Shown: positions 5,529 through 6,491 of the stretch, piece after piece | How the letters are laid out: each line of letters starts with the position of its first letter | Numbering within the stretch: position 1 is the first letter of the stretch | Origin: an uncultured bacterium | Lineage (GTDB): Bacteria > Desulfobacterota > DSM-4660 > Desulfatiglandales > CALKZT01 | Reading direction: 5' to 3' | DNA: 42,369 bases | Assembly: GCA_938002815.1 (NCBI GenBank) | Contig: CALKZT010000002.1 | Coordinates: 1 to 42,369, forward strand | Made by a program: the position numbers and the translations under genes | Notes under the pieces: model-generated | Databases searched by the model: none | What the model was told of the DNA's origin: nothing | What the model saw: only the letters and a program-made list of their open reading frames with translations

Positions 5529-6491
5529 ATGGATGAAGGATTTATCACCCTATGTAGATATTTAGGGGCCGCCCTTTCTGTAGGTTTTGGCGCAATAGGG
5601 GCTGCGCTAGGCGAAGGCTATGCAGCTGGCCAGGCCTCCGACGCAATCTCTTATAGGCCCCAGGCCTCTGGAGAGGTCTTAAAAAATATGCTCGTTGGCC
5701 AGGCCATAGCAGAATCTGCTGCCATCTTTGCCCTTGTGGTCTCGATCCTTTTGATCTTTGGTTCAACAGAGTTCCATACCCAGATTTTTGGGTGGGCAGC
5801 CCTCTCAGGCGGGCTTTGCATGGGACTTGCTGCTATAGGGTCTGGGATAGGTGCAGGAGTTCCTGCAGGTACCGCATGTAAGGGTATTGTGAGACAGCCC
5901 GCAAGTTCAGGAAAGATACTTACCACCATGCTCCTTGGAAGTGCAGTGTGCCAGACTCCCGCTATCTTTGGACTTGTTACCGCATTCCTTTTGATATTCC
6001 TGGACCATTCTAACGTTCCCCTTTACCCAGGGTGGGCTGCCATGGTGGGGTGTGGGATCTCCACAGGACTTGCAGCAATAGGCCCCGGAATAGGAAACGG
6101 TCTTACTGCTGGTGAGGCCGTAAGTGGAGTGGCCAGGAATCCAGATCAGTCAGGGATGACCTCAAGGACCATGTTGGTGGCCTTGGGGGTTGCCCAGTCC
6201 ACGGCCATCTATGGGTTTTTAATAAGCCTTATGCTCCTTTTCATGACCCCAAAAGAGAGCACATCCTTTGCCCAGGCCATGAGGCTTCTCTCTGCAGGTA
6301 TCTGCATGGGGTTTGGTGCCTTTGGCCCTGGTTTAGGAGTAGGGATGACGGGTGCCTATGCCGTAAAAGAGGTACCCAGGAACCCCGACGGGTCCCAGGT
6401 CCTTGTAAGGACCATGCTCGTGGGAATGGCAGTAGCTGAATCTACAGGGATCTACTCCCTGATCATAGCTTTACTACTAATCGTCTTATAG
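5529..6491 (+). CDS. atpE: Four-hairpin fused ATP synthase c subunit (eight membrane helices)
   Basis: This 320-residue protein is four tandem c-subunit hairpins instead of one (the usual length is about 80). Hairpins span roughly 1-82, 83-162, 163-245 and 246-320, each with a glycine-rich inner helix, a polar loop (YRP, RQP, RNP, RNP) and an outer helix. The outer-helix ion site reads Glu62-Ser63, Gln142-Thr143, Gln223-Ser224 and Glu304-Ser305, so only hairpins 1 and 4 keep the carboxylate. The inner-helix partner position is Glu29, Ala109, Asn190 and Val271. Hairpin 1 thus has a two-carboxylate Na+-type site, while hairpins 2 and 3 cannot carry an ion in the usual way. The gene lies between atpB and a normal single-hairpin c gene, so the rotor may be mixed. 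Multi-hairpin c subunits with lost carboxylates are known in V-type ATPases and in Acetobacterium; I know of no four-hairpin F-type example. Confidence 0.9.

Follow-up and report, generated by a model that had tools for sequence, protein, structure and literature searches.

A fused four-hairpin c subunit with the carboxylate pattern E-Q-Q-E in a Desulfobacterota Fo operon, and its possible place in a mixed sodium-type rotor

Rotary ATPases are thought to require an evenly spaced ring of carboxylates, and in Na+-binding c rings residues 63, 66 and 67 are contributed by the preceding hairpin. Chains that join several c-type hairpins are already known from the two-hairpin c subunit of Acetobacterium woodii, from the V-type K subunits and from the archaeal c subunits of three and thirteen hairpins (PMC2359735). 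The A. woodii ring (4bem) is composed of one double chain and nine single chains, and in Enterococcus hirae the Na+ site lies within a four-helix bundle that arose by hairpin duplication, so that residues of two hairpins complete one site (PMC2359735). For the sulfate reducers, Koumandou and Kossida (2014, PMC4154653) reported in Desulfococcus oleovorans a duplicated, ectopic full Fo without F1, the a and c subunits of which group with those of Thermotogae, and regarded it as a duplication or transfer peculiar to that species; searching the text of that paper for hairpins gave no mention of them. In our incomplete coverage of the literature we found no F-type chains of three to six hairpins, no consecutive dead sites and no ligand rule of the kind described below, and on one F1 with two Fo's across Desulfobacterota we found only the remark on D. 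oleovorans. An earlier reading of the same DNA (the original prediction) had held that no four-hairpin F-type c subunit was known, and we likewise found none published, the only precedents being those of A. woodii and the archaea, which is weak evidence given that coverage.

The window, by which we mean the whole 42,369-nucleotide stretch that was analysed, comes from an uncultured Desulfobacterota bacterium (contig CALKZT010000002.1) and contains a + strand Fo operon with the gene order AtpZ (ATPase_gene1), AtpI, a, c4, c1, b' and b. Its features are listed here, with the site positions of the hairpins given in the register of the hairpin HMM.

4213..4449, + strand: AtpZ-like small membrane protein, first gene of the operon, GTG start (PF09527 ATPase_gene1, E 7.2e-16)
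4406..4834, + strand: AtpI-like protein (PF03899 ATP-synt_I, E 1e-8)
4847..5521, + strand: Fo subunit a, stator (PF00119, E 2.4e-50), which aligns with solved F-type a subunits
5529..6491, + strand: fused four-hairpin c subunit (c4), carboxylate pattern E-Q-Q-E
5547..5768, + strand: hairpin 1, with E29 (= position 32), E62 (= position 65), and S, A, F at 66/67/70
5787..6008, + strand: hairpin 2, with A at 32, Q142 at 65, and T, P, F at 66/67/70; site dismantled
6027..6254, + strand: hairpin 3, with N at 32, Q223 at 65, and S, T, Y at 66/67/70
6267..6488, + strand: hairpin 4, with V at 32, E304 at 65, and S, T, Y at 66/67/70
6490..6495, + strand: Shine-Dalgarno sequence of c1, a perfect AGGAGG that overlaps the stop codon of c4
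6503..6751, + strand: one-hairpin c subunit (c1), 82 residues (PF00137, E 1.4e-18)
6766..7203, + strand: Fo subunit b', peripheral stalk (PF00430, E 1.3e-11; best NCBIfam model subunit B')
7190..7774, + strand: Fo subunit b, peripheral stalk (PF00430, E 1.5e-9)
7809..7829, + strand: intrinsic-terminator-like hairpin ending the Fo operon, a 9-pair stem followed by a T run

The setting of c4 in an F-type F0 operon, as originally predicted, was borne out by the PF00119 and PF00430 genes on either side of it, and a and b are syntenic with a fused c in about 90 loci. The rotor-facing arginine of the window's subunit a is Arg167 in the motif SFRLYGN, and the corresponding stator residue is arginine in all 127 of 127 fused-c operons. 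AtpZ is syntenic in 91 of 96 related loci; the AtpI reading frame overlaps that of AtpZ, and its real start may be farther downstream. A V/A-type ATPase was considered and rejected, the a, b and b' subunits being F-type and the F-type c models scoring far above the V-type K models. The terminator-like hairpin is a consensus match only, in a region no richer in such matches than shuffled sequence, and the next gene (7844-8050) is convergent; no F1 genes were found downstream of the operon or elsewhere in the window. As to the surroundings, genes for a 2-oxoacid:ferredoxin oxidoreductase (TPP, POR_N/PFOR_II and POR domains) adjoin the Fo operon on the - strand at 8085-11063, permeases of the branched-chain amino acid ABC type and a periplasmic binding protein lie upstream at 282-3476 (-), and a sigma-54 factor (RpoN) is encoded at 15448-16896 (-).

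The c4 gene is a single open reading frame with an ATG start encoding 320 residues, along which PF00137 (ATP-synt_C) matches four times (E 3.6e-57, 190.9 bits against a cut-off of 24), and in the register of the hairpin HMM the ion-carboxylate position is occupied by E62, Q142, Q223 and E304, exactly as had been read from the sequence before. One carboxylate per hairpin, the usual state of F-type c subunits although not one demanded by the PF00137 model, is thus absent from this E-Q-Q-E chain. An AlphaFold2 model built with 41 sequences is all-helical (pLDDT 95.1, pTM 0.91), and Q142, T143 and P144 do not vary across the 41 aligned chains. By sequence and by the fold of that model alike, the closest match in the PDB is 4bem_J, the double c subunit (c1) of A. 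woodii, the second hairpin of which also reads Q-T-T; the original comparison with an A. woodii-like F-type fusion that has lost carboxylates was therefore apt in kind. Judged from sequence, the S, T and Y of hairpin 3 are predicted to be ligands for hairpin 4, and the site of hairpin 4 itself is possibly weak because position 32 holds V in place of E or Q.

Chains of this sort proved to be widespread. We collected 129 of them, finished genomes included, although a few of the chains are truncated where a contig stops and the collections share some genomes. The number of hairpins per chain ranged from 2 to 6, and the carboxylate patterns were EQQQ (61 chains), EQQE (40), EQQQE (7), EQQ (5), EQQQQQ (5), EQE (4), EQEE (3), EQQQQ (2) and EQ (2), with hairpin 1 carrying E and hairpin 2 carrying Q in every chain counted. 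The earlier statement that two of four carboxylates are lost therefore holds for the window's chain and describes one state among several for the fused chains as a group. The closest relative of c4, from another genus, is 71% identical over 316 residues, and further full-length homologues at 50-65% identity occur in Desulfobacterales genomes, among them the isolate drafts of Desulfatibacillum alkenivorans DSM 16219 and Desulfocarbo indianensis and the complete chromosome NZ_AP021875.1 of Desulfosarcina widdelii. A scan of one genome per species gave 111 related stretches in Desulfobacterales and deltaproteobacterial genomes, and 80 of them were retained. Matches at E 1e-40 or better were present in 40 of 394 sampled genomes of the phylum, each at least 85% complete, and 11 of the 55 genomes from the class to which the window belongs had a fused-c match in a search that passed over two shorter three-hairpin chains detected by another search. 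Six-hairpin E-Q-Q-Q-Q-Q chains were found in five loci (L194, L196, L198, L202 and L203), each followed by c1, b', b, delta and alpha. Two E-Q-E-E chains (L004:5995-6999 and L085:1444-2448) have both E32 and E65 in hairpin 3 together with a hairpin 2 that still lacks T67 and Y70, and are likely to be products of reversion or of gene conversion from c1.

In a tree of single hairpins the sequences grouped by position in the chain and not by genome, which indicates an ancient fusion; the hairpin at the C-terminal end frequently fell together with c1. Both this grouping and the fact that 129 chains from across the phylum, finished genomes included, conserve order, motif and synthesis signals speak against a decaying gene or one misassembled by the erroneous collapse or fusion of separate c genes, an explanation with practically negligible probability. 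The assembly artefact that the original prediction had wished to see checked is excluded by these chains, which come from isolate drafts and a complete chromosome as well as from other genomes of the phylum.

That the fused chain works as part of a rotor is best supported, in our reading of the sequences, by the distribution of the remaining ligands, which was examined in 118 unique chains comprising 477 hairpins, the last hairpin of each being counted as preceding an E-bearing one. In 472 of the 477 hairpins T/S67 and Y70 went together with an E65 in the next hairpin, being retained where it was present and missing where it was not; agreement with the hairpin's own E65 was 51% and with that of the previous hairpin 19%. 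At position 32, E or Q was present if and only if the hairpin's own E65 was present (470/477). In terms of motifs, hairpins that precede a Q read S-A-F or T-P-F, and those that precede an E or end the chain read S-T-Y or T-T-Y. Because the chains are related, ligand states were also mapped on a phylogeny of subunit a, an independent marker, where about 12 switches between E and Q in the last hairpin and 12 switches at positions 67/70 of the penultimate hairpin were accounted for by 13 joint changes, against about 24 expected under independence. Two of 127 chains (L006 and L008) were exceptions to this coupling of last and penultimate hairpins, and they look like transitional states. The double chain of A. 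woodii obeys the same rule, its last hairpin having Q yet keeping T-T-G-I-Y, and the geometry implied matches that reported for Ilyobacter tartaricus and E. hirae (PMC2359735). The simplest reading of these residues is that the hairpins of one chain would lie side by side in the ring, with the inner sites dismantled and both ends forming complete Na+ sites with their neighbours. Since the last hairpin keeps S-T-Y, it would abut an E-bearing hairpin.

A candidate for that neighbour is encoded immediately downstream. The one-hairpin gene c1 was omitted from the original prediction, and its presence alters the reading of the locus. It carries the full two-carboxylate Na+ motif (E32, V63, E65, S66, T67 and Y70); wherever the flanking sequence was long enough, a separate c1 with a complete site lies 3' of the fused c, and E32 was present in 93 of 94 one-hairpin c subunits in a first census. 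In the window the c4 ribosome-binding site is a weak AGGTG, with an anti-Shine-Dalgarno duplex energy of -7.3 kcal/mol against -11.4 kcal/mol for c1. The c1 signal was the stronger one in 88 of 92 loci (mean -11.0 versus -5.6 kcal/mol), these values being a proxy for translation only and the loci being related, so that the counts are not independent. The stronger signal points to c1 in excess, in agreement with 4bem, and together with the constant presence of c1 it suggests that the ring is most likely mixed and made mostly of c1. The earlier notion of a ring built from the 320-residue chain alone, with half of the usual sites, accordingly finds no support in that form. A ring of fused chains only (three or four copies, for example), with c1 in separate rings or spare, would satisfy the end rule equally well, since hairpin 1 bears E65 and a fused-fused junction would thus be complete, and the 13-hairpin c of Methanopyrus kandleri (PMC2359735) is a precedent for it; we nevertheless consider it very unlikely, given that c1 stands between fused c and b' in every sufficiently flanked operon, is strongly conserved and has the better initiation signal, and given that the hairpin number varies from 2 to 6, where chains of 5 would not suit all the ring sizes that allow 4 or 6.

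We therefore favour, with a probability of roughly two in three, a mixed Na+ rotor of the A. woodii kind, extended by a contiguous dead arc and belonging to a second Fo that would share one F1. The 320-residue chain would act as a sector in the structure of a mixed c ring of the Na+ type, present in one or few copies among many copies of c1, with its hairpins arranged in order round the ring. The inner sites, which have glutamine at 65, no E or Q at 32 and no T67/Y70, are dismantled, and the E-bearing end hairpins would form full Na+ sites with their neighbours. Each turn would then bring past subunit a an unbroken run of neutral positions that transport nothing, two of them here and up to five elsewhere, and while it passes no ion would be exchanged and hence no Fo torque generated. 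With the dead arc fewer ions would be moved per turn and per ATP. Provided that the ring does contain the chain, N hairpins with k dead sites move N-k ions per turn and (N-k)/3 per ATP, and on that same proviso the originally predicted decrease in ions per turn follows. Such a motor would, on the precedent of Bacillus PS3 discussed below, be poor at synthesis and better when driven by F1, and we infer, in line with the original prediction, that it chiefly works as an ATP-driven Na+ exporter, or else as a synthase confined to conditions of high sodium-motive force.

Whether a rotor of this design turns at all has to be weighed against the fused c10 ring of Bacillus PS3, in which a single E56Q substitution abolishes ATP synthesis (PMC8809890). 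If one glutamine suffices to halt synthesis there, a ring with two to five adjacent dead sites may not run in the usual way, and the fused chain could instead be a regulatory brake or an assembly scaffold that stalls or blocks the c1 rotor, for example against wasteful ATP hydrolysis; the weaker Shine-Dalgarno sequence of the fused chain, which is possibly substoichiometric, would suit that role. Several observations make this alternative unlikely. The gene belongs to the structural operon in every carrier, and in some families to an F1Fo operon, the c ring of A. woodii contains the same kind of subunit, and the end sites have been maintained through about 12 independent changes, for which a stalled rotor would have no need.

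The coupling ion of the mixed rotor is a separate question. Sequence alone leaves ion specificity unsettled, and for the two-carboxylate site of Fusobacterium nucleatum calculations give a weak absolute selectivity for H+ (PMC3692424), so that the same mixed ring might be coupled to protons. This we regard as distinctly unlikely, because c1 has every Na+ ligand and losses are confined to the dismantled sites, and because the ordinary c subunit of the same genomes differs, reading E-S-L and often having M at position 32. The window's genome encodes an RnfD/NqrB homologue, and the Rnf2 of Desulfobacteraceae is described as sodium-pumping and constitutively made (PMC11887813), which together indicate that a Na+ circuit exists.

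The supply of F1 was traced in the genomes of carriers. No F1 genes adjoin the fused-c operon in 96 Desulfobacterales loci, for which flanks of up to 6 kb, many of them shorter, were available. The carrier genomes checked have one F-type beta and two F-type a subunits, one of the latter in the fused-c operon and the other beside an ordinary one-hairpin c of the E-S-L-Y type, and exactly one delta was found in 12 of 12 carrier genomes. The count is unclear in two genomes, one with delta present and beta not found (G084) and one in which the N-type beta alone was found and the contig bearing the fused-c operon ends nearby (G291). Where a third a subunit and a second beta are present they belong to N-ATPase-like operons, the second beta scoring about 600 bits and the third a subunit lying beside a different c (E/M-E-S-T-Y). 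An N-ATPase was rejected as an identity for the fused-c operon, which lacks F1 genes, the N-ATPase-like operons being separate and having their own beta. In the finished genome of D. widdelii (L264, L266 and L011) the F1 operon, in which b', delta, alpha and beta were recognised, the ordinary AtpZ-AtpI-a-c locus and the fused-c operon occupy three different places, with a further N-ATPase-like operon elsewhere. Other families of the phylum (L194-L206) have fused c, c1, b', b, delta and alpha in one operon and the ordinary a/c pair apart from it without F1; this joining of fused c and c1 with delta and alpha marks the fused-c Fo as F1-coupled.

Genomes with one F1 and two Fo's imply either that one F1 serves both or that one Fo is silent. 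We favour the first, in which the second Fo, with its own a, c4, c1, b' and b, would use the cell's only delta-bearing F1, which would also serve the ordinary Fo. The combination of two Fo's with one F1 is seen in the genomes of relatives and not in that of the window. There, the F1 genes (b', b, delta, alpha, gamma and beta) lie on another contig (C92) and are split at contig ends inside beta, which continues on C48, and further ATP-synt_ab matches include a FliI-like frame on C7. No ordinary a/c operon was found in this 90.7% complete draft, only the one a subunit and the five hairpins described here, and the ordinary pair may simply be missing from the draft. Going further, one F1 might be exchanged between the ordinary Fo and a Na+ Fo with a dead arc of two to five sites, the arc letting that motor run well only under ATP drive and the choice of Fo switching both the coupling ion and the gear; we put this forward tentatively, as a possibility closer to doubtful than to probable. 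The mixed composition of the ring, Na+ as its coupling ion, the sharing of F1 at the level of the protein, the stoichiometry and the direction of work are all features that we infer from these genes.

If these readings are right, F-type rotors would have repeatedly evolved with several adjacent dead sites and intact end sites, with about 12 in-step switches along the way. Rotors with fused c chains would offer direct tests of how large a gap in torque is tolerated, of how ion-to-ATP ratios evolve and of why mixed rotors exist. The genomes further imply two different Fo motors on one F1 in abundant marine sulfate reducers, which matters for how these manage sodium and protons.

Among known systems, the c1/hybrid ring of A. 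woodii (4bem) is similar in having a multi-hairpin F-type c subunit in which Gln replaces a carboxylate and which is partnered by a one-hairpin Na+-type c. It has two hairpins and one lost carboxylate, however, whereas the chains described here have 2-6 hairpins and have lost as many as five carboxylates in a row, and their Fo usually lacks F1 genes and occurs alongside an ordinary Fo. The Na+ c ring of F. nucleatum (PMC3692424) shares with c1 the same ligands at the same numbers (E32, V63, E65, S66, T67 and Y70), but that ring is homomeric, with neither fused chains nor dead sites. V-type K/c subunits (E. hirae NtpK and the eukaryotic c) likewise have duplicated hairpins with one carboxylate lost (PMC2359735), whereas here the F-type a, b/b' and c models match best and the pattern is E-Q-Q-E or E-Q-Q-Q and not simply one in two. 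The archaeal c subunits, with three hairpins in Methanocaldococcus and thirteen in Methanopyrus, are long tandem fusions too (PMC2359735), but they belong to A-type enzymes, and every Methanopyrus hairpin keeps its Na+ ligands (PMC2359735). The ectopic Fo of D. oleovorans is probably the same system as the fused-c Fo; in contrast to the account given of it, the system described here is phylum-wide, and its c gene joins several hairpins, some of them with dismantled sites.
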